This document shows positions 1,235-15,997 of a DNA stretch of 16,325 nt, one piece after another (position 1 is the stretch's first letter; each line of letters opens with the position of its first letter). The notes beneath the pieces were generated by a model. The model was not told the DNA's origin. It saw only the letters and a list, made by a program, of their open reading frames with translations, and made no database searches. This DNA comes from Bacteroidia bacterium (GTDB lineage Bacteria > Bacteroidota > Bacteroidia > AKYH767-A > OLB10): NCBI GenBank assembly GCA_025450095.1, contig JANWID010000050.1, positions 1 through 16,325 of the forward strand, read 5' to 3'. The position numbers were made by a program, and so were the translations under genes.

Positions 1235-1974
1235 TTACTATTGTAATAGTAATCCTGATTTTGTTGCTTGTAAACCTGATGTTAACGGGTCGTAACCGGC
1301 GTTTGAAGCATGATGCTGAAATGCTGAGGGTCCAGTATGATTTTAATGAGCAGATTTCTACCATTCGTATGGAGGTGGCGGAAGCTACACTCAATGATGT
1401 ATCCAGGGATCTGCATGATGAAGTGGGCCAGCTTTTAACTTTTTGCATTCTTCAGCTGGAGAATGTGGAAACGGCGCCATCTAACAAAAAAGAACCGATG
1501 CTTCTGGAAGTAAAAAAATCAGTACGTGACACACTTGATTCTGTAAGGAGTATTTCAAGGGGCATCAACACTGATTTTGTAAATAAAACCGGGCTGATGG
1601 AATCATTGCGGCAGCTTGTAGAACGTGCTTCACAACGCACATCGCGTAAAATTTCATTGCACGCAAATCCGGATTTCCGTATTAAGAATCCCAACTTCAA
1701 TGTGATTGTTTTCCGGATTATCAGGGAGTGCCTGACAAATGCAATCCGCCACGGGAATGCAAATGAAATATCCATTGCGCTTGATTCAAAAGATTTTGGT
1801 GCCGCAGTAACGATACTTGATAATGGTAATGGCTTTTCAACAGAAAACGGGCTCCATCCGGGTCAGGGCATTACCAGCATGCAGCATTATGCCCGGCTTA
1901 TGAAGGGGGATATGCGCTTTGGAAACCGTAGTGAAGGAGGAACGGAAATTATGCTTACCTTTCCAAATGTTTAA
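1192..1974 (+). CDS. Sensor-less NarL-type histidine kinase (HisKA_3 + HATPase_c)
   Basis: Predicted two-component kinase of the NarX/DesK-like class, about 260 residues from ATG 1192 (an ATG at 1162 would add ten residues). One TM helix spans about residues 10-31. A coiled linker follows, then the HisKA_3 dimerisation and phosphoacceptor helix with the motif RDLHDEVGQLL (His about residue 75). The HATPase_c domain shows the N box RECLTNAIRHG, G1 box DNGNGF (about 210-215) and G2 box GQGITSM, so catalysis looks intact. There is no periplasmic loop, PAS, GAF or TPR region, which is unusual because many Bacteroidota kinases of this class carry TPRs. The start overlaps the seven-TM gene by 43 nt, and the response regulator begins 11 nt after its stop. 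I prefer 1192 because MDQDFAQIGF leads directly into the TM helix and keeps the overlap smaller, but 1162 cannot be excluded. Confidence 0.9.
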   Translation: MDQDFAQIGFALSVITIVIVILILLLVNLMLTGRNRRLKHDAEMLRVQYDFNEQISTIRMEVAEATLNDVSRDLHDEVGQLLTFCILQLENVETAPSNKKEPMLLEVKKSVRDTLDSVRSISRGINTDFVNKTGLMESLRQLVERASQRTSRKISLHANPDFRIKNPNFNVIVFRIIRECLTNAIRHGNANEISIALDSKDFGAAVTILDNGNGFSTENGLHPGQGITSMQHYARLMKGDMRFGNRSEGGTEIMLTFPNV

Positions 1975-3437: not shown

Positions 3438-3950
3438 ATGGATATCAGCGATATCGAACTTTTTTCAAAAATAGTATTAATAAGAGGTCAGAAGGTTTTA
3501 TTAGATGAAGACCTGGCAAATTTATATGGCGTTAAAACCAAGGTGCTGAACCAGGCAATAAGAAGAAATATTGAAAGATTTCCAGCTGATTTCATGTTTC
3601 AATTAACTGATAATGAGTATGGTAATTTGAGGTCACAAATTGTGACCTCAAATCGTGGCGGACGTAAATACCTGCCATTTGCTTTTACTGAACAAGGCGT
3701 AGCAATGCTTTCCAGCGTGCTTCGTTCAAAAACAGCAATTGCAGTAAATATTCAGATCATGCGTGTTTTTGTGAGTATGCGAAAGGCATTGCTTGATTAT
3801 TCGGAAATCCTGGAAAAAATTGAATCGCTGGAAAAATCACAATTGGACCAGGATGATTTGATTGGTCGAATCTATTCTCTCATTAAAGAATTACTGGAAC
3901 CTGTTTATAAAGACCGACCGACTATAGGATTCAAGATACATTATGATTAA
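3438..3950 (+). CDS. ORF6N-domain DNA-binding protein
   Basis: A 170-residue protein. Residues about 8-93 match the ORF6N domain (phage antirepressor-associated, KilA-N-like): VLLDEDLANLYGV, a helical LNQAIRRNIERFP, DFMFQLT, then NLRSQIVTSN and GGRKYLPFAFTEQGVAMLS. A long helix (about 95-150), probably coiled-coil, follows and would serve dimerisation. The family is known from phage Rep/antirepressor proteins and is common as single genes in Bacteroidota chromosomes. Its cellular role is not established. The ATG at 3438 gives the usual N-terminus (DIELFSKIVLIRGQKV). No phage genes surround it, so it is either a domesticated element or a small mobile unit with the preceding gene. The codons for residues 63-72 form a 29-bp inverted repeat (separate entry). 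Confidence 0.9.
   Translation: MDISDIELFSKIVLIRGQKVLLDEDLANLYGVKTKVLNQAIRRNIERFPADFMFQLTDNEYGNLRSQIVTSNRGGRKYLPFAFTEQGVAMLSSVLRSKTAIAVNIQIMRVFVSMRKALLDYSEILEKIESLEKSQLDQDDLIGRIYSLIKELLEPVYKDRPTIGFKIHYD
3625..3653. repeat. 29-bp inverted repeat inside the ORF6N gene
   Basis: Two perfect 14-bp arms (ATTTGAGGTCACAA at 3625-3638 and its reverse complement at 3640-3653) are separated by one base. The repeat lies in frame over NLRSQIVTSN, one of the best conserved strings of the ORF6N domain. The structure is directly visible. Whether it is an operator, an mRNA hairpin or a recombination site is unknown. Confidence 0.9.
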
Positions 3951-4097: not shown

Positions 4098-7000
4098 ATG
4101 AAAAAAATCGTGCAACTTTTAATGATAATAACGATCATGCTTTTGAATACTTTAGAAACGAATGCTCAAAACGTAACCATTACAGCACTTGCCCCTGTTT
4201 GTAACGGAGATGGAATTCTGGTTGCTTCGCATAGTATACCAGGAGGTACTTTTCTCTATAGATGGTGGACAAACGAAGGGGTGGTAACTCACATGACTAC
4301 CGATTTAACAGACACACTATTTAATTTCAAAGGAGGATCAGTATATTTAGATCTGAACATGAACGGAGCTTTTGTCGATTGGGGTGCAGGAGTTTTTAAT
4401 TTCCCTTTTAATATAGCGCAAACCGTTGTAGCCGATACGTGCCCCTTTCAAACCGGATCCATTTCACTGGCGTTAACAGGAGGGATTGCTCCCATAAATT
4501 ACAGTTGGACTTTTAACGGGCTCCCTTTCGGGGGAAATACCGCTGCGTTGAGTAATTTGTCAGCAGGTGTTTATGATTGCCTGATATCCGATGCGGCAGG
4601 ATGCCAGATGTACCTGAGCGAAACCTATATGGATACCTCATTTAGTATGAACGTTCCTTCCGTAAATAATCTGAATTTAACATTCAACGCTACTCCTGCC
4701 AATTGCACGAATGGTACTGCTACCGTAAATGTAACCGGAGGTCAGGCGCCTTATTCATACTTGTGGAGTAACGGGCAAACAACACAAACTGCAACCGGAC
4801 TGACTCCAAATGTTTTTTTTACAGTAATAGTAACCGATGCAAACGGGTGCATCAGTCAGGACGGTGAATGGATTACTTCCAATATAAATATTGCGGTAAA
4901 CACCAGTACCACTCCTGCTCATTGTACTTTCAGCGACGGAGCTATAACCGTTATTCCCACAGGTGGAACCGGACCTTACAGTTACCTGTGGAATACCGCA
5001 GCTGTTACACCGACAATTTCTAATCTTCCGGAAGGACAATATGCAGTAACCGTTAGTGACGTCAATGGATGCGTTGCTGTCGAGAACATTTATATAATTG
5101 CACTCACCCCGGTAAATGTAACTTTTAACACCACACCTACGCAATGTCTTGGAGCTACGGGTTCCGCAACAGCGATTCCATTTGGCGGTATAACGCCATA
5201 TACTTATGAATGGTACACCACACCTGTACAGAACACTGCAACCGCAACATCGCTCGCTCACGGATCTTACAATTTCAAAGTGACCGATTCACAGGGATGT
5301 ATTCGCACTGGTATGATAACAGTGCTTCAAAACACAACTTTAGCGTTGAGTATTAATTCTACTCCAACTACCTGTACTCAAAACAATGGCACCGCAACCA
5401 TGACCGCAACCGGTGGATCGCCACCTTATAGTTATTTGTGGAGTAACGGACAGACATCAGCTGCTATTTCAAATCTCCCGATATCCTTCAATTATGGTAC
5501 CGTAACGGATGCACTTGGTTGTTATATTACCGGTTGTGAAGGAATCACATACAATTCAACACTCAATTTTTCATTGGCGCCACAGGCTGCCTCCTGCCTG
5601 TATACTCCCGATGGTAGTATTTCTGTAAACATATTCAGTGGCACACCTCCTTATACATATATATGGTCGAACCTACAAACAACACCTTCAATAAGTGGCC
5701 TGCTGCCTGGTCATTACTGGGTACAGATTTCTGATGCCAATGGATGTCTCCATTATGAAGACATAACTTTAGGTTATAATTCCATCAATCCATGCACTGC
5801 AGTTTTAGAGGGCTTTGTTTATATTGACATGAATAATGATTGTGTTCATTCTGCAGGCGAACCAGGAATGGAAAATATTCCCATTCATTGCAGTACAATC
5901 AATGAAACATATTTCACCGATGGTTCCGGACATTATTCTTTTCTTGTTCCGGCCGGTACAATTACACTTCAACAACTTCCATTACCTTACCGTTATCAGA
6001 CTTGTCCGATATCGAATCCATTCACCGTAAATATTCCGACCACGGGAATTACAGTTCTTCAAAATATTGGTGACACGGTTGACTGGGTGAATGACTTAAC
6101 CGTGGGTATATGGAATTACTGTTCCGTGCCATTGGTAGGAAGCAACTTTATTCATAAGGTCGTGGAACTTAACCTCGGTACACAGTCACTCGCATCATCC
6201 AATCAATACGATTACGATTCACAAACACCATATGCTTTTGCTACGCTTTCTCCTTCAACATTTAATCCGGGGATTAGTCGCGCAACCTGGGATGATCCGC
6301 TTTTTCTTCCACTAAATGAAACAGAATATAATGTTACGCACTCCGTTCCGGTCACTGTTCCTATTAATACACAGATTTATTTTACCGATACTATATTTCC
6401 GGTTTCAGGTGATACCACATGGTGGGATAATAATTTGTTAAGGATTGAAACGGTTGTTGGGTCATACGATCCCAATTATAAGGAAGTGACTCCACGTGGT
6501 ACAGGTCCACAGGGATATATTTCACCTGCCGATTCGGTACTGGAATACGTAATCCACTTTCAGAATCTCGGTAATTATTTTGCAGAAAATATCCGCGTCA
6601 CCGATTTGCTCGACAGCGATCTGGATCCACTGAGCCTACGGATAATTTATGCCACACACACTTGTTATACACACATTAATGCTGCCGGAGAAGTTGAATT
6701 CAATTTTCCAAACATTTATTTACCTGCGGCAGCTGATGATTCCATTGAAAGTAATGGATTTGTTGTATTCACCATTCACCTGAAACCAAACCTTGCTGAT
6801 GGGACACAAATTGAAAATATGGCAAACATATTTTTTGATCACAACCCTCCTGTTCCTACCAATACTACGCTGAATACTATTCTTATCACCGGTATCGAAG
6901 AAATGAATTTACTTTCTTCCGTTTCTGTTTTCCCAAATCCAAATAACGGATCTTTCTCCGTTTATTTCCCGGATGAAATTCAGGGGATAGTAAATTTACA

Positions 7001-7160
7001 ACTGATGAATATGACTGGTCAGCTGGTTTATGAAAGAGAAGAACTTGTTTCCGGAAAAAACCTGGTTTATATCGACCAACAGAACCTGGCACCTGGAATT
7101 TATTTCCTGCAGACGGAATGTAACGGATCAAGAAAAAATATGAAGGTAGTTGTGAAATAA
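4098..7160 (+). CDS. Secreted T9SS cargo protein with SprB-like repeats
   Basis: A 1020-residue exported protein. A Sec signal peptide covers residues 1-24 (MKK, hydrophobic core, TNAQ cleavage site). Residues about 115-551 hold six SprB-like repeats of the form GG..PYSYLWSNGQTT...L..G.Y.V.VTDANGC, with paired Cys. Residues 570-625 (EGFVYIDMNNDC..AGEPGMENIPI) look like an SdrD-B or carboxypeptidase-regulatory-like beta sandwich. Residues about 788-928 (SYDPNYKEVTPRG, VIHFQNLGNYFAENIRVTD, FFDHNPPVPTNTT) match the conserved domain common just before sorting signals in Bacteroidota surface proteins. Residues about 943-1020 form the T9SS type A sorting domain (VFPNPNNGSFSV...APGIYFLQT...KMVVK-like end). 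The protein is predicted to be translocated across the outer membrane and anchored or released at the surface, with an adhesin-like role (inferred). Much smaller than SprB itself. The gene stands alone and is followed by a strong hairpin. Confidence 0.93.
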   Translation: MKKIVQLLMIITIMLLNTLETNAQNVTITALAPVCNGDGILVASHSIPGGTFLYRWWTNEGVVTHMTTDLTDTLFNFKGGSVYLDLNMNGAFVDWGAGVFNFPFNIAQTVVADTCPFQTGSISLALTGGIAPINYSWTFNGLPFGGNTAALSNLSAGVYDCLISDAAGCQMYLSETYMDTSFSMNVPSVNNLNLTFNATPANCTNGTATVNVTGGQAPYSYLWSNGQTTQTATGLTPNVFFTVIVTDANGCISQDGEWITSNINIAVNTSTTPAHCTFSDGAITVIPTGGTGPYSYLWNTAAVTPTISNLPEGQYAVTVSDVNGCVAVENIYIIALTPVNVTFNTTPTQCLGATGSATAIPFGGITPYTYEWYTTPVQNTATATSLAHGSYNFKVTDSQGCIRTGMITVLQNTTLALSINSTPTTCTQNNGTATMTATGGSPPYSYLWSNGQTSAAISNLPISFNYGTVTDALGCYITGCEGITYNSTLNFSLAPQAASCLYTPDGSISVNIFSGTPPYTYIWSNLQTTPSISGLLPGHYWVQISDANGCLHYEDITLGYNSINPCTAVLEGFVYIDMNNDCVHSAGEPGMENIPIHCSTINETYFTDGSGHYSFLVPAGTITLQQLPLPYRYQTCPISNPFTVNIPTTGITVLQNIGDTVDWVNDLTVGIWNYCSVPLVGSNFIHKVVELNLGTQSLASSNQYDYDSQTPYAFATLSPSTFNPGISRATWDDPLFLPLNETEYNVTHSVPVTVPINTQIYFTDTIFPVSGDTTWWDNNLLRIETVVGSYDPNYKEVTPRGTGPQGYISPADSVLEYVIHFQNLGNYFAENIRVTDLLDSDLDPLSLRIIYATHTCYTHINAAGEVEFNFPNIYLPAAADDSIESNGFVVFTIHLKPNLADGTQIENMANIFFDHNPPVPTNTTLNTILITGIEEMNLLSSVSVFPNPNNGSFSVYFPDEIQGIVNLQLMNMTGQLVYEREELVSGKNLVYIDQQNLAPGIYFLQTECNGSRKNMKVVVK
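4440..5750 (+). repeat. Six SprB-like protein repeats, period about 75 codons
   Basis: The repeats lie at residues about 115-170, 203-252, 275-326, 350-402, 426-476 and 500-551 of the secreted protein. The core PYSYLW or PYTYxW and the closing DxxGC recur in each, and the second and fifth copies are closest (both YSYLWSNGQT). The DNA has diverged, so this is an old duplication rather than a recent expansion. The long antisense reading frame over 4755-5261 is a by-product of this repetitive composition. Confidence 0.88.
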
Positions 7161-7322: not shown

Positions 7323-8861
7323 CTATTTTGATACCATAATTATTTCTGTAATTCGCGTAGCGCCACTGGTAAATTCAACCGCAAACATTCCGTTACGTAG
7401 ATTTTCAGGCATTGCAATAGTGACTGGTGAGAAAAGTGAATCAAATGATTTTTTAAACACGAGTTTGCCGGTGTAATCATACATTTTCAATTCAACAGTC
7501 TTTTCCATTGGCTCATCAAATGAAACCTGGAAATGATCCTGTGCAGGATTGGGATAAATATTAATACCGGAAATAACAGCAGGATCTTCAATACCTGTTG
7601 GGGCAACGGTTAGTACTTTTGCAAGAAGAAAATCAAAATTAATTCCGGGTTGAGTTACTCCATAACCAACAATCGATTGATCCGGCATCACAACAAGGCT
7701 GTTTAACCAGTTAAAGCTTCCGGCTGAATTTCCTGTATACAGACCGTTATTACCAAAAGCATTATCCGCAGTACCATCAGTCAGCAACCGGACAAGTAAA
7801 GCATCTGAACCAGAGTTTCCGCCTGACAGCACGATTTTCCCATCTGCCTGCATGGCAACATCTGTAATTACATCTGTTGGATCCTGTGTTGGAAGATAAG
7901 TAAATCCGCCAGTACCAAACCCGTTATCTGTACTACCGTCGGCATTTAACCGCGCTATCATGTATTCATTAATTGCCCCATCGTGATGATTACCCGCAAG
8001 AACAATTTTACCGTTCGGCTGCAGTGTCATTCCATAAGCTTTATCAACCCTGCTTCCGGATGACAATACTACTTTCCCTGCAGTACCGAATGTCACATCA
8101 GGTGTTCCGTCGCTGAGGTAGCGCGCTGCTGCAAAATAAATAGAGCCGGGTTCCTTATAGCCTGATACAAGAATTTTATTGTCGGGCTGGACGGTTAAAG
8201 AATATATGTTTTCATAAGCACCGTTAAAGTCGGTGGTTACCCAACCATTGGTTCCAAAAGAGGCATCCGGAGTGCCATCACTCAGGAGTCGCACAACTGC
8301 AAAATCATAACTGTTGTTGATCCACCTTCTCCCGGCTGCCAGAATTTTTCCGTCGGCCTGCATGGTGATGTCATGAAATTCATCGAACTGTCCGTTCAGC
8401 CAGAACGGAACGAATCCACCGGTACCAAAAGTATTATCCGGAATTCCGTTTGCTGTTAAACGCATCACCATCGGATCATTATAATTGTTACTGTCGAAAT
8501 ATCCTGCAACTACAATTTTACCATCGGGCTGTAGGGCGACAGAGGTTGCAACATTATTGGCATTTACAATCCAGCTGTTCATATGTCCATTGATCCCGAA
8601 ACTGCTGTCGGCTGTTCCATTAGCATTGTAACGGGCAACCATAAACGTACGGTGGCTGTTTTCCCGGGAATACCCGGTAACAACGAGTGTGCCGTCGGGT
8701 TGTACAACGATATCGTTTGCGACATCATCCTGGAGGAAGAAATCAGATATTACCTGACCGTTAGTTCCGAAATTCAGATCTGGTGTTGGAAATTGTGCCT
8801 GGGCCTGGAGCATAGCGAGGCTGCATGCGATAAGAGAAAGAATTGATTTAATGGTTTTCAT
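7323..8861 (-). CDS. Secreted delta-60 repeat protein with T9SS sorting domain
   Basis: A 512-residue exported protein. The signal peptide is residues 1-22 (MKTIKSILSL...AQAQ). Residues about 25-416 contain seven delta-60-type repeats: each has a QPDGKIVVAG-like strand (VQPDGTLVVTG, LQPDGKIVVAG, MQADGKILAAG, VQPDNKILVSG, LQPNGKIVLAG, MQADGKIVLSG, VMPDQSIVGYG), an ARYxxDGTxDxxFG turn and a GTNG or GTGG close. This family is expected to fold as a seven-bladed beta propeller. Residues about 434-512 form the T9SS type A sorting domain (INIYPNPAQDHFQVSF, YDYTGKLVFKKS, NGMFAVEF). It should be secreted through the outer membrane. No catalytic residues are apparent, so a binding or structural role is the best guess. 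The cupin gene lies 47 nt upstream on the same strand, possibly with separate transcription. Confidence 0.93.
   Translation of the reverse strand: MKTIKSILSLIACSLAMLQAQAQFPTPDLNFGTNGQVISDFFLQDDVANDIVVQPDGTLVVTGYSRENSHRTFMVARYNANGTADSSFGINGHMNSWIVNANNVATSVALQPDGKIVVAGYFDSNNYNDPMVMRLTANGIPDNTFGTGGFVPFWLNGQFDEFHDITMQADGKILAAGRRWINNSYDFAVVRLLSDGTPDASFGTNGWVTTDFNGAYENIYSLTVQPDNKILVSGYKEPGSIYFAAARYLSDGTPDVTFGTAGKVVLSSGSRVDKAYGMTLQPNGKIVLAGNHHDGAINEYMIARLNADGSTDNGFGTGGFTYLPTQDPTDVITDVAMQADGKIVLSGGNSGSDALLVRLLTDGTADNAFGNNGLYTGNSAGSFNWLNSLVVMPDQSIVGYGVTQPGINFDFLLAKVLTVAPTGIEDPAVISGINIYPNPAQDHFQVSFDEPMEKTVELKMYDYTGKLVFKKSFDSLFSPVTIAMPENLRNGMFAVEFTSGATRITEIIMVSK
7614..8789 (-). repeat. Seven delta-60 repeats (predicted propeller blades)
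   Basis: The recurring FG-[TIN]-[NGA]-G turns fall at residues 31, 88, 145, 202, 258, 315 and 369, a spacing of 54-57 residues. Seven repeats match one complete propeller. The last copy is the most degenerate (VMPDQSIVGYG). Confidence 0.85.
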
Positions 8862-9836: not shown

Positions 9837-10610
9837 TCATTTGACAAGTCCGGCTTTCCTAGGCAAGTACTGGAAGTCAGCCTGGCCTTTTTTCAACCAG
9901 GATAGTCCGAAAGCGAACAGTGCGATTGTTTCCAGGATAAAAGTTGAATTAATATTTCGCAGCCATTGATATTTGGGTTCAAGGTACATTGCGAATAAAG
10001 GCACTAAGGCCAGGCATATGAGCATGGTGATTCCACATTTCTTGTAGAATGGATCATCCGGACCGGTTCCAAAAAGATTTTGTTGCTGTGCCCGCCTGAA
10101 ATTAATGATACACAAAAATGCAAGCACTATGAAAAAGCTGGCTGCAAAAAAATAATGAACATATCCGATGAAATCGCTGCTGAGGTAATTGCGCAGATTA
10201 TCCTGGATAAAGTCATCTGATGAAGTAGGGAAAATTGCTACGCCCAAAGCAAATATACCCGCAAGGTTGGTCATGGTGTTATCCGAAAAGCCTTTATCAC
10301 CTTTGCGTAATGGATGACCGTTATAACAAATCATGAACAATGATACTGTAAACAGGATGCCGGTAAATAATTCCCCCATAGTGGAATAGTAATAGTGACT
10401 AACCGATGACTTGAAAGAACCTGGCGATGCATAATGATAATTTTCCGCTATTTTAAAAAACAGTTTGTTGTTGAATATATCGGTGTAATTCAAAATAATA
10501 TTTCCCGTAAGCAGTAAAACCGGAAGCAGCATGCCCAGCCATCCAATAGCCTTTCGCATGGTAAGATAGGATACAACACTGGAATCGTGGGATGAAGGTT
10601 GGGTAGGCAT
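9837..10610 (-). CDS. Six-TM membrane protein, downstream partner of the 1409-residue protein
   Basis: A 257-residue integral membrane protein with predicted TM segments at about 20-41, 80-97, 113-129, 148-171, 191-210 and 222-239. The N-terminus is soluble and Ser-rich, and the tail (WLKKGQADFQYLPRKAGLVK) is basic and cytoplasmic. Motifs SHYYYSTMGELFTGILF (71-87), an NLAGIFALGVAIFPTS helix (115-130) and GYVHYFFAASFF (149-160) recall a family of uncharacterised membrane proteins in Flavobacteriia and relatives, including the polar Tyr and His positions inside the membrane. I cannot name the family with confidence. A DUF998-like assignment is possible. The gene starts 39 nt after the stop of the 1409-residue gene, on the same strand, so co-transcription is likely. 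Confidence 0.85.
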   Translation of the reverse strand: MPTQPSSHDSSVVSYLTMRKAIGWLGMLLPVLLLTGNIILNYTDIFNNKLFFKIAENYHYASPGSFKSSVSHYYYSTMGELFTGILFTVSLFMICYNGHPLRKGDKGFSDNTMTNLAGIFALGVAIFPTSSDDFIQDNLRNYLSSDFIGYVHYFFAASFFIVLAFLCIINFRRAQQQNLFGTGPDDPFYKKCGITMLICLALVPLFAMYLEPKYQWLRNINSTFILETIALFAFGLSWLKKGQADFQYLPRKAGLVK

Positions 10611-10649: not shown

Positions 10650-13600
10650 TTATGGTGTCGAACTTTTTGTCTTAAATGTATTGAAGAAATTTAGAAATGC
10701 CGGAATGGCTGCTGCGAAACCGGTTATTACCGCGGTAAGAGCATTAAACGATTCTTTTTGTGTGTAATAAATGAAGAAAAGGAGAGCCAGGAAAACCACA
10801 AAGAACGGCCCTTTGAATTTACTCCATAAGCTGTCTTTCTTATGCGAGTCGTCGGGCAGCGCCAGATGTCCAACCTGTACTTCAGTTAATATAAAGTTCC
10901 GGAAACTTTTATTCATTACTTCCGGTCTTCCGTTATTGATGATCAGTCCTTTCATATGCAGTTGTGAAAGTGATTCAAAGTTCTTGTGATTCACCAATCC
11001 ATCTTCTGCAATATCAAACAGCACGTATTGTTCTTCAAATGTAAGAGAATTCCAAAGGGAGAGATAATAGTTGTGTGCTACCGATTGTATATGAAGGACG
11101 ATATTTTCAAAATCCTCGTAGCTGAAATCCTGCGAAACGGAATCATTATGCTGTGAAAGTTCCTTTTTTAGTTTTCTAAGATACTTCCCATGATTACATT
11201 CCTGTTCAAAAGCTTCCTCCATGGTTGCGGGAATATTTTGGTAATGTTCATTATTACTTTCCAGCGGGTAATGAATCACATCAAATGAACTCAGTAAACG
11301 TGTCCAGTTGAAGTACGATTCAATATGTGTCATTGCACACGGTACAGCCTGATTTTCGGTACCTGTTCGTAATCTGATACTGTTCAGGATTACATTTGGA
11401 TGAATAGTGGATATAATGATGATATTCTTATAACCTTTTCGCGTCAGGTTTTCAAGAAATTTGAATTTGAGTTCATTCAAACACTTATTTGTAAGGCCAT
11501 ATTCGAAATGACGTATTACAATAAAATCATTTTTTTCAGCCTCATTAATACTATCCTGTTCTTTTTCCCATTCTTCAGTTTCTCCCAGCCTGACAAAGTC
11601 AATGAGCCATTTTTTGTATGGCTGATATTCAGATGTCGATTCTATATAATCTGTTTTCCCAGAACCGGGCAGACTGATTATTATCATCCTTAGTTTTTCG
11701 GGAGACTCACTCCCGGGAGTAATCCGTATTGGTTTTATTAATTCATCCGGGTTTTCACGGAAATAATCCGGCAGGAACATCAGGTTGATAAAGTGTGTAA
11801 TGATGATATAAATAATAAAAATGCCAGAAATCACAGATAACCAAAATACGCAAAATACAATTCTGTTTCCTGACCACCTTGGTAATGTATACAATGGCAA
11901 CACTGTGGAGATTGTAAGCTGATCCCCTGTTTGGTTCTTGCTGGTTTCCGGATCCAGGGCAACTAATTGCAGCGTGTTCTTTTTTAAAGAAGACCAACTC
12001 AGCGTCATTGTATCTTGGTCATCGAAACGGCCGAGCATATGTTCATTTCCACTGGTTTTGTTAAAGACAAATCGCAACATTTTATTCAAGCCGCATTCAA
12101 ACATTCTTTCTTTAACAGTTTCAAGATCTTTAATATTAAAGACAAGAAGTAACATTTTTTTCAAACCCCGGTTAAAAATGCTTTCTTTTACGGTATCTGA
12201 ATCTTTTGCTATTCCATACTTTACTGTTGTGTTGAAATATTTTTTCTCAGTATAAATATTCCGAAAGTCTCCGCTATCACCAGGTAAAAGGATGAAATTC
12301 TTAGAAAATGATCCGGAAGCCGGATTTGTAAACTTGTTAATTCCTTTAAGCCATGAAAGCTGGTTCTGTCTGGCATTGATTTCTGTTTCCAGGTTATATG
12401 CAAGGGAGTAGAATTTATAAACGGGGACCAATGAAATCAGGCACATCCAGGAAATAATCATTGCAGCAAATAACCGAATATGATCGCTATTTAAAAAAAT
12501 AGAAAAAATTCCGTTAAATTCCTTCTTATTATCTTTATTATTTGTGTTTGTCAGGTTAGCATTTTCTTTTTTATTTTGGTTGATTAATTTTTCACGGTCC
12601 TTTTTATTTTTATAGAAGTGCTTTCCAAACAATAAAATAACTGTTGCTATAATAATTAAAAAGTATCCCACTGCAATTGCCCTGGCCTGGATATTTGGCA
12701 GATAAACAAGAAGCCCAACAAATAGAGCCAGGCTTATACCAATAAAAATACGGAACCTTGTATGAATTATATTCTCATCAAGCATACGGAAAATCCGGGA
12801 ATGGCTCACATAAAAATAGAGAGTCATGGATATGTAAATATTGAATAGAATCAAATAAATACATAGTTCAGACCCTCCGGTAATTGTTGATGGAAAATAG
12901 TGAGTGAGCATTAAAGTAAACACAAGCAATATAATATTCAATACAGTAATCCGGAAATATTCCTCTCGCCTGTTTCGATCGGGCCATAACCAGTCGAAAC
13001 GGTATTTGTTGGCTCTTAGTTTAGATGTTCTTAGATTGAATATTAATAACAGGGAAAGCAAGATTCCCATTAATAGCAGAGTGCATAAAAAAAAGTAAAT
13101 GGTTACAGCACCAATTTCAAGACTCTTCACTAATGTCGGGGACAGATCCCGCATGGTAATAATGTAAAGTGGCAACTTATCTATTGGTGTTATATATAAC
13201 CGTTGCGTTGAGCCACCATACTGTTCCTTGAAAAATAAAGAGGTCCTGGAATAAATTGCCGATTGCAAGTATTGATTCTGATTGCACTCTTCGAGAATAT
13301 TTTCATTCGTATTCAGGTTTCGGTCGGAATGAAACCAGACATCCCCTTTTTCATCAACAATGCAATATTTATATCCATTCGGAATTACAGGATTTATAAC
13401 TGAAGGCAAATCAGTTGCGATTGCTGCAAGAAATATAGTTTTGTCTTTGATAGTATCTGTCGATCTTCTTGCAATAACTGCCCGGAATTCACCATCGACC
13501 CATGATCGTACAGACTGCATTACAAAAGGAAGGCTGGGTTGAGATGAAAGTTGCCAAAATGCTTCATTTTGAATATTTCGGAAATAATCCCGGGTTTTGA

Positions 13601-14879
13601 AATTACTTTTCCCGAAAACCTGATCTCCATTCACCCATGAAAATTTATGATCACCATTTTTATTCAACCAAAAAGTTCTGAAAAAAGGAGGGTAACTAAT
13701 TAGTGGTGTAATACTAGCCTTGAAATCAGGATCACGCCTTTTAGTACTATATTCTGTCGGATCTATCGAAATATTATAAATGTCTTTGTGGAATTCACCT
13801 GCATTTTTGTCGAATGTATTAAGTTGCATTAGCGCAGAATCCACATCTTTAACAAAGCTGTTCCTGAGTTCTAATGTTAAAGATTTTTGTTGTTCATCAT
13901 ATCCTGGTTTATCAATAGTAAAATACTGGAATTGATCCAGGAAGATAAAGAAGAGTAGTCCAGAACCAAAACTGAGGGAAACCACTGCCAGGAGGATGTC
14001 CGCTGAACGAAGCCGCTCAAAGCGACCCATCAGGTATATTTTAAAAAATGGAAAGAAAATAGCTATTCCAAGGATCAGGAAAAGCAGGGTAGAAATATAA
14101 TAATACGGAACGCTGAGTCTTTCATTGTTGTATTGATTCACTGGTAAAGCTCCCATCAGTTTAAATTCCCCCATACCGTTAAACACAAATGGAATAGTGT
14201 AAATCCGGTACTCACTGTCATCCGAATTCAGGTTCATTATTTTCCTTGCTTTAAAAGGACCTAAATTCGCAAGCAAACTGTCCCTGAATTTCATATTTAC
14301 CTGGTGCGGAAAATCGCTGTAATCAACAACGGTGTCATGCAACAGGATATAATTTGCAAAAAGATCCTTTCGAAAAAGATAAGACAGGAAGCCACTCATT
14401 TTCATACCAACCAAATAATCTTTTTTAGTATTATCAATGTGGGTCAGATGGAAAACAAGGTAAGGCTCGTTATGTAATGTGGTTGTAGTGACGGAATCCT
14501 TTTTGTCTATGAATAATTTAAAATAAGGCTTGTTAGAAATATTTTTCCGATCACCCATCCATTCAAATTCTGGAACACTGTCTGCAAAATATTTTTGAAT
14601 GCTATCTGAATTAGCATTCTTCATTTTTGAAGCAGTCATTGATTTTGATATGGCCAGCCGGTGAAAATCAGGTAACCGTTGATTGATATTGTCAGCAATC
14701 CGGTCTAATGCACGGAATTGCCTCCGGTTTATTTTTTCTTCGTTGTTCGCTACATAGTGAAAAAAGTAAAACCCGATGAAAAGGCTGACTATAATGAGCG
14801 TAATTAAAACGGCAGTAAACCCCGCCATCCTGGCAGAAAGGTTTTGGAAGAATGTTCCTAGTTTTCCGGAAGTGCTCAT
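10650..14879 (-). CDS. Multi-pass sensor protein with Cache-like, P-loop NTPase and winged-helix domains
   Basis: A 1409-residue protein with about twelve predicted TM helices (22-43, 259-281, 294-314, 587-615, 642-661, 671-691, 709-728, 732-752, 800-822, 1007-1032, 1356-1372, 1379-1400). Basic loops at 282-293, 616-641, 692-708 and 753-799 fit a cytoplasmic location. Three large regions should lie outside the membrane: 44-258, 315-586 and 823-1006. The second looks like a double Cache sensor (TRDYFRNIQ, then YCIVDEKGDVWFHSDRN). The cytoplasmic region 1033-1355 has a P-loop SLPGSGKT (1069-1076, Ser in place of the first Gly), a Walker-B-like strand FIVIRHFE (E1126), a sensor-like strand NIIIISTIHPN (1152-1162) and a winged-helix-like segment (about 1271-1337, SLWNSLTFEEQYVLFDIAEDG...MKGLI). 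This order suggests a STAND-like or AAA-like signalling ATPase coupled to ligand sensing. The terminal TM pair could be an effector or an anchor. Residues 896-945 hold a tandem duplication. Confidence 0.88.
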   Translation of the reverse strand: MSTSGKLGTFFQNLSARMAGFTAVLITLIIVSLFIGFYFFHYVANNEEKINRRQFRALDRIADNINQRLPDFHRLAISKSMTASKMKNANSDSIQKYFADSVPEFEWMGDRKNISNKPYFKLFIDKKDSVTTTTLHNEPYLVFHLTHIDNTKKDYLVGMKMSGFLSYLFRKDLFANYILLHDTVVDYSDFPHQVNMKFRDSLLANLGPFKARKIMNLNSDDSEYRIYTIPFVFNGMGEFKLMGALPVNQYNNERLSVPYYYISTLLFLILGIAIFFPFFKIYLMGRFERLRSADILLAVVSLSFGSGLLFFIFLDQFQYFTIDKPGYDEQQKSLTLELRNSFVKDVDSALMQLNTFDKNAGEFHKDIYNISIDPTEYSTKRRDPDFKASITPLISYPPFFRTFWLNKNGDHKFSWVNGDQVFGKSNFKTRDYFRNIQNEAFWQLSSQPSLPFVMQSVRSWVDGEFRAVIARRSTDTIKDKTIFLAAIATDLPSVINPVIPNGYKYCIVDEKGDVWFHSDRNLNTNENILEECNQNQYLQSAIYSRTSLFFKEQYGGSTQRLYITPIDKLPLYIITMRDLSPTLVKSLEIGAVTIYFFLCTLLLMGILLSLLLIFNLRTSKLRANKYRFDWLWPDRNRREEYFRITVLNIILLVFTLMLTHYFPSTITGGSELCIYLILFNIYISMTLYFYVSHSRIFRMLDENIIHTRFRIFIGISLALFVGLLVYLPNIQARAIAVGYFLIIIATVILLFGKHFYKNKKDREKLINQNKKENANLTNTNNKDNKKEFNGIFSIFLNSDHIRLFAAMIISWMCLISLVPVYKFYSLAYNLETEINARQNQLSWLKGINKFTNPASGSFSKNFILLPGDSGDFRNIYTEKKYFNTTVKYGIAKDSDTVKESIFNRGLKKMLLLVFNIKDLETVKERMFECGLNKMLRFVFNKTSGNEHMLGRFDDQDTMTLSWSSLKKNTLQLVALDPETSKNQTGDQLTISTVLPLYTLPRWSGNRIVFCVFWLSVISGIFIIYIIITHFINLMFLPDYFRENPDELIKPIRITPGSESPEKLRMIIISLPGSGKTDYIESTSEYQPYKKWLIDFVRLGETEEWEKEQDSINEAEKNDFIVIRHFEYGLTNKCLNELKFKFLENLTRKGYKNIIIISTIHPNVILNSIRLRTGTENQAVPCAMTHIESYFNWTRLLSSFDVIHYPLESNNEHYQNIPATMEEAFEQECNHGKYLRKLKKELSQHNDSVSQDFSYEDFENIVLHIQSVAHNYYLSLWNSLTFEEQYVLFDIAEDGLVNHKNFESLSQLHMKGLIINNGRPEVMNKSFRNFILTEVQVGHLALPDDSHKKDSLWSKFKGPFFVVFLALLFFIYYTQKESFNALTAVITGFAAAIPAFLNFFNTFKTKSSTP
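12061..12210 (-). repeat. Tandem 75-bp duplication inside the 1409-residue gene
   Basis: The stretch beginning TTAAAGACAA occurs at 12061 and again at 12136, exactly 75 nt apart. The two copies encode TVKESIFNRGLKKMLLLVFN (896-915) and TVKERMFECGLNKMLRFVFN (921-940), with 13 of the first 20 residues identical. It keeps the frame and lies in the third extracytoplasmic region. Confidence 0.85.
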
Positions 14880-14907: not shown

Positions 14908-15003
14908 TCATTTGAATGATGAAGTGGAATAATAAATCAAACTATACAACAGATAAATAAATATCAGCCCGATTACAACATCCAATGCTACAGAATTGAA
15001 CAT
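14908..15003 (-). CDS. 31-residue membrane peptide or 5' remnant of a larger gene
   Basis: An ATG at 15001-15003 opens a 31-codon frame ending in TGA at 14908-14910, 28 nt before the start of the 1409-residue gene. The product begins MFNSVA and continues with LDVVIGLIFIYLLYSL (residues 7-22), a clean membrane helix, then a short Ser/Tyr tail. From memory, this opening closely resembles the N-terminus of large uncharacterised membrane proteins in Bacteroidota, where it runs on into ATI-QE-type sequence. Here the resemblance stops after about residue 22. It could be a truncated remnant of such a gene, or a genuine small membrane protein made with its neighbour. The homology is remembered, not tested. 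Confidence 0.5.
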   Translation of the reverse strand: MFNSVALDVVIGLIFIYLLYSLIYYSTSSFK

Positions 15004-15310: not shown

Positions 15311-15997
15311 GTGAAACCACTGATTATTCGGATTCTGAAGTACATTTTCATATTCATTGGATGCATAACCGGCTTCGTGGTTTTATATCTCTTTGTAGCA
15401 TACACCCTGGTCAAAATTCCGGTGAATTCAGAAAGGAAACCAGGAAAAGATATTACAATCTGGATCCGTTCAAATGGTGTTCATGTCGATATAGTGATGC
15501 CGGTGAAAACTCAATTTATTGACTGGAGTAAAATAGTCAAATATGAAAATACAAGAGGCAATGATACAACTTCACAATGGGTGGCATTCGGTTGGGGCGA
15601 TAAGGGTTTTTATTTACAGACTCCCACCTGGGCTGACTTGAAATTCAGTGTGGCTTTTCGTGCAGTCACAGGGTTGAGTGAAGCTGCCATGCATGTAACC
15701 TATTACAATAACATCTTCGAAAGTGAATCATGCCGGCGTGTTGTTATCAGCAATGAAGAGTATAAAAAACTTACAACAGCTGTTTTATCAGGATTTGACC
15801 GGACGGCTTCCGGCCAGGTGATCCGTATAGTTACCAATGCCAATTATGGAGATGATGATGCCTTTTATGAGGGAAGCGGAACGTACAGCCTGTTTCATAC
15901 CTGCAACACCTGGACAAATAATTCACTCCGTTATGCCGGACTTCCAGCAGCAGTATGGACTCCATTTGAACAAGGTCTTATGGATTATTACAGATAA
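15311..15997 (+). CDS. DUF2459 / TIGR02117 family membrane-anchored protein
   Basis: A 228-residue protein with an N-terminal membrane anchor (about 10-34) and an extracytoplasmic domain. It shows the family motifs IWIRSNGVHVDIVMPV (50-65), FGWGDKGFYLQTPTWADL (93-110) and YSLFHTCNTWTNNSLRYAGL (192-211), ending with WTPFEQGLMDYYR. The conserved N55, H58 and C198 would suit a cysteine-based hydrolase-like site, but the family's biochemical activity is not known to me. The start is GTG at 15311. Upstream in the same frame there is no ATG before the TAA at 15251, and this start puts the basic KPLIIRILK directly before the TM helix. A bidirectional terminator follows the stop. It was first noted in other bacteria near urease genes, but nothing like that is present here. 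Confidence 0.9.
   Translation: MKPLIIRILKYIFIFIGCITGFVVLYLFVAYTLVKIPVNSERKPGKDITIWIRSNGVHVDIVMPVKTQFIDWSKIVKYENTRGNDTTSQWVAFGWGDKGFYLQTPTWADLKFSVAFRAVTGLSEAAMHVTYYNNIFESESCRRVVISNEEYKKLTTAVLSGFDRTASGQVIRIVTNANYGDDDAFYEGSGTYSLFHTCNTWTNNSLRYAGLPAAVWTPFEQGLMDYYR

Follow-up and report, generated by a model that had tools for sequence, protein, structure and literature searches.

Results

A single intact gene encodes a giant putative membrane receptor

The stretch of DNA analysed here (the window, 16,325 nucleotides of contig JANWID010000050.1 from a Bacteroidia bacterium) carries on its reverse strand an intact gene, running over 1409 codons from ATG to stop with no internal stops, whose product we read as a giant one-component receptor (hereafter the receptor; Table 1). 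A hydropathy scan (19-residue span, cut-off 1.6) found 12 segments of transmembrane (TM) size once overlapping peaks had been merged. With the N-terminus assumed to lie inside, the short loops are richer in K/R on the inner than on the outer side, and three long loops are placed outside the membrane (residues 40-261, 314-595 and 822-1008; 222, 282 and 187 residues, respectively). The cytoplasmic stretch at residues 1028-1354 holds SLPGSGKT, HFEY (from residue 1124), NIIIISTIHP and a winged-helix-like segment, with EDGLVN from residue 1292, and is followed by two TM helices. Hydropathy and loop charge thereby agree with an earlier reading made from the letters of the DNA (the sequence-only reading), which had proposed about twelve hydrophobic helices, three large extracytoplasmic regions and a terminal TM pair; the cytoplasmic motifs that it listed were all located within residues 1028-1354.

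The protein gave no match above cut-off in Pfam, NCBIfam or PADLOC, and a sequence search against solved structures returned nothing credible. It is nevertheless matched by 31 other database proteins, the top four sharing 33-40% identity over 99% of its length, and a search of genomes, one for each species, located relatives at 58 loci; hence, the open reading frame (ORF) is not due to chance.

Table 1 Features of the receptor gene and of its surroundings, in window positions.
Feature	Position	Strand	Basis or remark
Giant one-component receptor, whole gene, 1409 amino acids	10650..14879	-	ORF and relatives
TM-sized segments, approximate residues 21-39, 262-283, 295-313, 596-614, 644-662, 673-691, 709-727, 734-752, 803-821, 1009-1027, 1355-1373, 1381-1399			Hydropathy scan
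Extracytoplasmic region 1, residues 45-255	14115..14747	-	Predicted model
Extracytoplasmic region 2, residues 317-587, predicted dCache domain	13119..13931	-	Predicted model and fold comparison
TM helix block, residues 590-825	12405..13112	-	Hydropathy and loop charge
Extracytoplasmic region 3, residues 825-1005	11865..12407	-	Alignment and predicted model
STAND/NLR-like module (nucleotide-binding domain, helical part, winged helix), residues 1045-1346	10842..11747	-	Predicted model
P-loop SLPGSGKT, residues 1069-1076	11652..11675	-	Sequence motif
Walker-B-like strand FIVIRHFEY, residues 1119-1127; Arg at the Asp position, Glu retained	11499..11525	-	Alignment
Sensor-1-like strand NIIIISTIHP, residues 1152-1161	11397..11426	-	Sequence and alignment; label given by eye
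Winged-helix core EEQYVLFDIAEDGLVN, residues 1282-1297	10989..11036	-	In the family's most conserved 25-residue bin
Terminal TM helix pair, residues 1355-1399, candidate membrane effector or anchor	10683..10817	-	Hydropathy, alignment and model
31-codon ORF matching the first 23 positions of the ~400-amino-acid membrane protein 'c2', read as a truncated remnant	14908..15003	-	Profile E 3.4e-6
257-amino-acid membrane protein, DUF998 match below cut-off	9837..10610	-	39 bp downstream of the receptor, possible co-transcription
ORF6N-domain protein	3438..3950	+
Probable surface or secreted repeat protein	4098..7160	+	Judged from sequence
Probable surface or secreted repeat protein, delta-60 repeats and type IX secretion system sorting tail	7323..8861	-
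DUF2459/TIGR02117 family protein	15311..15997	+	Divergent from the receptor gene

A predicted dCache sensor lies outside the membrane

Structure prediction for residues 317-587 returned a clear dCache fold set between two TM helices, in line with the Cache sensor suggested by the sequence-only reading. The window protein itself did not match Pfam dCache_1 at E values up to 0.1, and 32 of 53 relatives did (best E 1.2e-14; five of the 53 rows being full-length database proteins). The model of region 1 begins with a long helix and continues as a mixed alpha/beta fold that is Cache-like by eye, with 10-residue blocks mostly between 77 and 95 in predicted local distance difference test score (pLDDT) and the lowest at about 60-66. 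Region 3 is poorly conserved across the family, and its model confidence is low to middling. An extracytoplasmic dCache domain is thus common to known dCache receptors and to the window protein; the output of the known receptors is a chemotaxis or kinase domain rather than a STAND-like block. As a separate observation, a carboxypeptidase-regulatory-like domain (PF13715, E 1.2e-11) was matched in one member of alignment A4, in which five rows are full length.

The cytoplasmic module resembles NLRs and has mostly lost its catalytic residues

The model of residues 1045-1346, taken from a prediction of residues 790-1409 (mean pLDDT 77.5, roughly two in three of the module's 10-residue blocks scoring above 85), shows a P-loop nucleotide-binding domain (NBD), a helical part and a winged helix, in that order. 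The NTPase-like fold anticipated by the sequence-only reading is therefore present in the model, and its nearest likeness is the NBD-winged-helix block of plant NLRs, which lies slightly closer than AAA+ proteins and aligns over more residues. AAA+ proteins fall within 1-2 Z units of the NLR rows, and the likeness to the module holds at the level of fold only. At the sequence level, the window protein matched no STAND family at E values up to 0.1, and weak matches were seen among 59 relatives to nSTAND1 (three proteins, best E 0.004) and to nSTAND3 (two proteins, best E 5e-4).

Plant NLRs of the NB-ARC type, such as RPP1 and Roq1, are soluble and carry leucine-rich repeat sensors at the C-terminus. 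In the receptor, by contrast, TM helices flank the module, an N-terminal sensor faces the outside of the cell, and most family members lack the catalytic residues. Two archaeal ATPases, 2qen and 2fna, which we take to be STAND proteins (their database entries name a Walker-type and an AAA+ ATPase), align with the module over 244 and 241 residues, respectively, through the winged helix; they have no membrane or sensor part.

The state of the catalytic motifs was read from one MAFFT alignment of 82 rows. It excludes three loci at which the receptor is spread over several ORFs (L028, L036 and L045), two with short ORFs (L021 and L033) and three further short sequences (P0018, P0028 and P0032); loci L010, L030, L039, L046, L052 and L056 are absent from set A3. 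In the window protein, the Walker A signature GK[ST] is present and the Walker B Asp is replaced by Arg, a substitution on which the sequence-only reading made no comment, so that the Walker pair is not intact. Across the family, the P-loop lysine column holds K in 50 of the 82 rows, GK is found in 43 and GK[ST] in nine, the Walker B Asp is kept in 11, and GK[ST] and Asp occur jointly in three. The E of HFE, three positions past that of the Asp, is an acidic residue in 78 rows. Conservation is highest in the winged-helix core (residues 1276-1300; mean top-residue share 0.72), followed by a dCache stretch (residues 501-525; 0.58) and by the part that runs from the winged helix through the terminal TM pair (residues 1301-1400; 0.45-0.55).

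Since the Walker residues are mostly lost, ATP hydrolysis is unlikely to be the common function of the family; from the alignment, it appears more likely that members bind nucleotide or switch by purely mechanical means. The sequence-only reading is thus borne out in part, its ATPase being weakly supported: the window protein has GKT together with Arg at the Walker B position, and the complete pair is rare across the family. The P-loop lysine, whose loss across homologues that reading had singled out as telling, persists in a majority of rows, whereas the full GK[ST] does not.

The receptor is rare and almost confined to Bacteroidota

By their labels, 57 of the 58 loci belong to Bacteroidota and one (L053, Gracilimonas) to Balneolota. 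When genomes were sampled evenly across the phylum of genome G001, six of 296 carried the receptor gene, as do 11 of 301 genomes of the family of G001 (the centre included in both cases, and one of the 11, G142, being a distant partial match); both values may be underestimates, at most four candidates having been scored per genome. One of the phylum genomes, G230, has the receptor at two places on different contigs. Each of 20 chosen carrier genomes has one open frame for it, with three matched in two pieces. No record in the plasmid and phage collections matched the receptor, and a stand-alone NTPase-winged-helix-TM module was not found, the two of 6148 candidates at E values up to 1e-4 both lying on contigs of about 2 kb. 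At L028, L036 and L045 the relatives extend over two or three ORFs and may be decaying copies, true two-gene forms or assembly faults.

Patatin-like phospholipases adjoin the receptor gene at ten loci

The survey of homologues for conserved neighbours that the sequence-only reading had proposed was rewarded by one family. A patatin-like phospholipase (PF01734) is directly adjacent to the receptor gene, on the same strand, at ten of the 58 loci, the other 48 being without. Gene calls at the loci follow a longest-ORF heuristic; 153 neighbours were listed, 68 of them on the opposite strand, and the 85 on the receptor's strand were scanned with Pfam and PADLOC. Among these 85, PF01734 was matched by nine of 55 upstream neighbours (positions -1 and -2) and one of 30 first downstream neighbours, and every other listed family had two matches at most. 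All nine upstream patatins occupy position -1, separated from the receptor gene by -25 to 51 bp, and the downstream one lies at 121 bp. A same-strand upstream gene occurs within 120 bp at 16 of the 56 loci that have an upstream gene, and nine of these 16 are patatins. From 57 patatin matches in the 20 carrier genomes, about 0.03 adjacent same-strand patatins would be expected in 58 loci, on the assumption of one gene per 1.1 kb and with ten of the 20 genomes picked for an adjacent patatin, the observed ten being counted over all loci.

The patatins are of four dissimilar types (best between-type identity 24-29%), and that of L051 has no significant match to representatives of the others. The receptors linked to them occupy separate places in the tree, L057 on a long branch; same-genus loci are not independent, and at five of the ten the patatin is of the same type. 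GK is present in six of the ten patatin-linked receptors and absent from four; hence, the linkage to the effector appears independent of the state of the P-loop. PADLOC phospholipase effector models, which may match any patatin, were found in seven of the 55 upstream and one of the 30 downstream neighbours at E values up to 1e-10, the L051 patatin matching none. We take these models to belong to CBASS, whose CapV-type phospholipase effectors some of the adjacent patatins resemble in this respect. In contrast to CBASS, the trigger here would be the receptor and not a cyclic nucleotide: no cyclase model was matched among the families listed for the same 85 neighbours at E values up to 1e-10. Another parallel is offered by fungal NLRs, in which, according to PMC4986451, patatin is an N-terminal effector domain whose partner is "almost invariably" NB-ARC. 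Both pair a patatin lipase with an NB-ARC-like switch; in the fungal proteins the two are fused, whereas here they are encoded by separate adjoining genes and the receptor is in the membrane.

Further lipases and wall hydrolases occur at individual loci. At L035 a Tle1-like lipase is the next gene downstream of the receptor, and alpha/beta hydrolases lie three genes away in L024 and L047 (in L047 on the opposite strand). At L012 a 1917-amino-acid protein combining subtilase, caspase (C14) and DUF7379 is encoded 36 bp downstream of the receptor (13955-19705 of that locus, + strand), followed on the same strand by a peptidoglycan-binding CHAP protein and then by a protein that matches patatin in part and is cut off by the end of the locus. 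Links of STAND AP-ATPase genes to caspases are described for bacterial conflict systems in PMC8195603, the main text of which contains neither 'patatin' nor 'cache'. Within a few genes of the receptor we also found GH19 in L003 (and, by likeness, in L001), the CHAP protein of L012, a muramidase in L044, Amidase_2 in L007 and an amidase in L013 with relatives in L024, L027 and L039. In a simple hydropathy scan, no strongly hydrophobic stretch was seen at the start of the wall hydrolases of L001, L003, L007, L012, L013 and L027 (1.06 at most, as compared with 2.4-2.6 for two leader-bearing neighbours), and that of L044 has one (2.99).

Some receptor genes stand at the end of contractile injection clusters

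Genes for eCIS_core, a protein family of extracellular contractile injection systems (eCIS), lie within 10 kb of the receptor at four of the 58 loci (L013, L027, L039 and L047). In G002 (L013) and G004 (L027), the receptor and its patatin stand at the end of an eCIS cluster and share their strand with a sheath gene at a distance of about 32 and 35 kb, respectively; between them lie eCIS_core genes together with ORFs resembling tube, spike, baseplate and PAAR proteins (labels given by eye from the starts of the ORFs and not by profile). Two small opposite-strand genes break the run just ahead of the patatin in L027, where the arrangement is a cluster and a candidate operon at most. Both genomes are Mucilaginibacter and represent one lineage. 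The sheath match of G007 (L039) is on a separate contig; in G019 (L047) an eCIS_core gene adjoins the receptor and the sheath match is some 290 kb away. At L013, L027, L039 and L083-L086 the injection-system cluster holds several eCIS_core proteins, after which come a membrane protein, an amidase, the patatin and the receptor, all sharing a strand.

Genome-wide, eCIS_core was matched in 13 of the 20 chosen carriers (ten below E 1e-20), and a sheath match was found in 14, seven of them over the cut-off. Within the family of G001, any eCIS_core match was seen in 7/11 carriers and 68/290 other genomes (Fisher 0.006), and matches below 1e-20, a cut chosen after inspection of the list, in 7/11 and 37/290 (Fisher 1.9e-4); both tests ignore kinship. 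As seven of the 20 carriers have no eCIS_core match, the receptor is not an obligate part of eCIS.

The window locus and other neighbours

No lipase or wall hydrolase was recognised beside the receptor gene of the window in Pfam and NCBIfam scans. The remnant of 'c2' lies directly upstream of it, which suggests, from the sequence, that a larger gene set has been cut down at this locus. The 'c2' membrane protein is found near nine of the 58 loci (7 kb away in L016 and truncated in L024); as a specific partner of the receptor it was rejected on account of the great size of its family, which had 2276 matches out of 7997 scored. The DUF998-like protein downstream has no relative among the clustered neighbours of the other loci. 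The ORF6N domain is frequent in phage genes.

The largest cluster of neighbours (19 of 58 loci) proved to be a mix of regulators joined by common DNA-binding ends and was set aside as probable clade-level synteny. A 241-amino-acid regulator, 66-78% identical to that of L013, stands convergently at +1 on the opposite strand in L011, L013, L027, L033 and L039; in L014, L031 and L035 a different regulator of about 254 amino acids lies on the opposite strand ahead of a membrane protein. Two small genes (about 160 and 111 amino acids) recur close to the receptor: L001 and L007 have them on its strand, L027 has them on the opposite strand, and L039 has one of them, likewise on the opposite strand. 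DisA/CdaA and folP near Hymenobacter loci look like local synteny.

Discussion

Our findings establish a real receptor family whose parts are each of known kinds and whose combination is new, and which is undescribed in the open-access sources searched. As modelled, a single chain joins an extracytoplasmic dCache domain, a membrane block and a STAND/NLR-like module clamped by TM helices. The sequence-only reading needs correcting in two main points: catalysis has for the most part been lost, and the best hint at function comes from the neighbours of some relatives. We propose that these proteins are one-component Cache-STAND receptors that license envelope-attacking effectors, a reading to which we assign a probability of roughly 0.45, the coupling of receptor to effector being the inferred step.

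In the proposed mechanism, an extracytoplasmic ligand or a change in the envelope would shift the TM helices and release the winged helix from the NBD in the manner of NLRs, and the surface of the module so exposed would gather or license effectors. Because the catalytic residues are mostly lost, the switch in many members would probably bind nucleotide weakly or not at all, so that the membrane-linked sensor, and not an ATPase cycle, would drive it. Patatin or Tle1-type lipases are, where adjacent, the best-supported of the putative effectors; where there is no such lipase, as in the window, the receptor's own terminal TM pair is a candidate. The wall hydrolases, most of which have no leader-like start with which to reach the wall, would act once the inner membrane is broken, and the cell would thereby undergo regulated lysis or death.

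The principal alternative is a sensor of environmental or envelope stress that governs ordinary lipid and wall remodelling, with patatins, amidases and GH19 as remodelling enzymes and not suicide effectors. The commonness of patatins, of which all 20 searched genomes carry at least one, is in keeping with such a role, as are the rarity of the receptor, its mostly single copy and its lack of matches among plasmid and phage records. For remodelling, however, it would be unusual to find wall hydrolases that mostly have no leader-like start, a caspase-subtilase partner and an injection-system cluster, and we consider this explanation possible but rather unlikely.

An NLR-like fold beside patatins that match phospholipase effector models also invites comparison with membrane-bound STAND-type defence sensors of intracellular invaders (Avs, bNACHT or CBASS-like), in which the patatin would be an effector of abortive infection. 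Yet the sensor is an extracytoplasmic dCache, neither the window protein nor the receptor of L007 matched a PADLOC model, and the lipase models are of doubtful specificity; together with the absence of cyclase matches among the 85 neighbours and of plasmid or phage copies, this renders defence improbable.

Contractile injection particles are generally freed by cell lysis, and the Afp cluster has an upstream lysis cassette, as described in the review PMC12961389. The eCIS loci of Mucilaginibacter would accordingly fit a release of particles by lysis of the cell. The whole of this extended proposal (an NLR-like receptor that senses outside, a largely non-catalytic switch and a self-lysis cassette, coupled to eCIS release in some Mucilaginibacter as a signal-gated means of lysing and firing) is speculative and, on present reckoning, unlikely. 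Alternatively, the receptor may be an accessory factor of eCIS, active in membrane recruitment, firing or release. A precedent is CisA of Streptomyces, according to PMC12237407 a bitopic membrane protein whose gene accompanies a contractile injection system tied to cell death. Both are membrane proteins linked to contractile injection genes, and the place of receptor and patatin at the end of two eCIS clusters and the enrichment of eCIS_core among carriers in G001's family fit such a role; the receptor differs from CisA, however, in having 12 TM segments and a sheath-cluster link in one lineage. As a sheath gene lies within 40 kb in only two of 20 carriers, both Mucilaginibacter, seven carriers have no eCIS_core match, and the co-occurrence statistics ignore kinship and use a 'strong' cut set after the list had been viewed, we give an accessory role only a slim chance. 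An AAA+ motor or chaperone bearing sensory TM domains, although close in fold comparison, is very improbable, given the loss of catalytic residues in most members, the winged helix that follows soon after the NBD and the best coverage by NLRs.

Among the best matches checked in the open-access literature there was no description of such a Cache-STAND receptor, nor of one with patatin or injection systems, and a passage search of PMC12419801 gave no Cache or contractile-injection link.

We know of no described case in which an NLR-type switch stands directly behind an extracellular small-molecule sensor. If our reading that Cache-STAND receptors license envelope-attacking effectors is true, this family would place such a switch immediately behind a sensor of that kind, and bacteria would be able to couple regulated lysis to a specific outside cue. 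The family would furthermore provide a test case for STAND switches that operate without ATP hydrolysis and a possible explanation of how some Bacteroidota time the release of their contractile injection particles.

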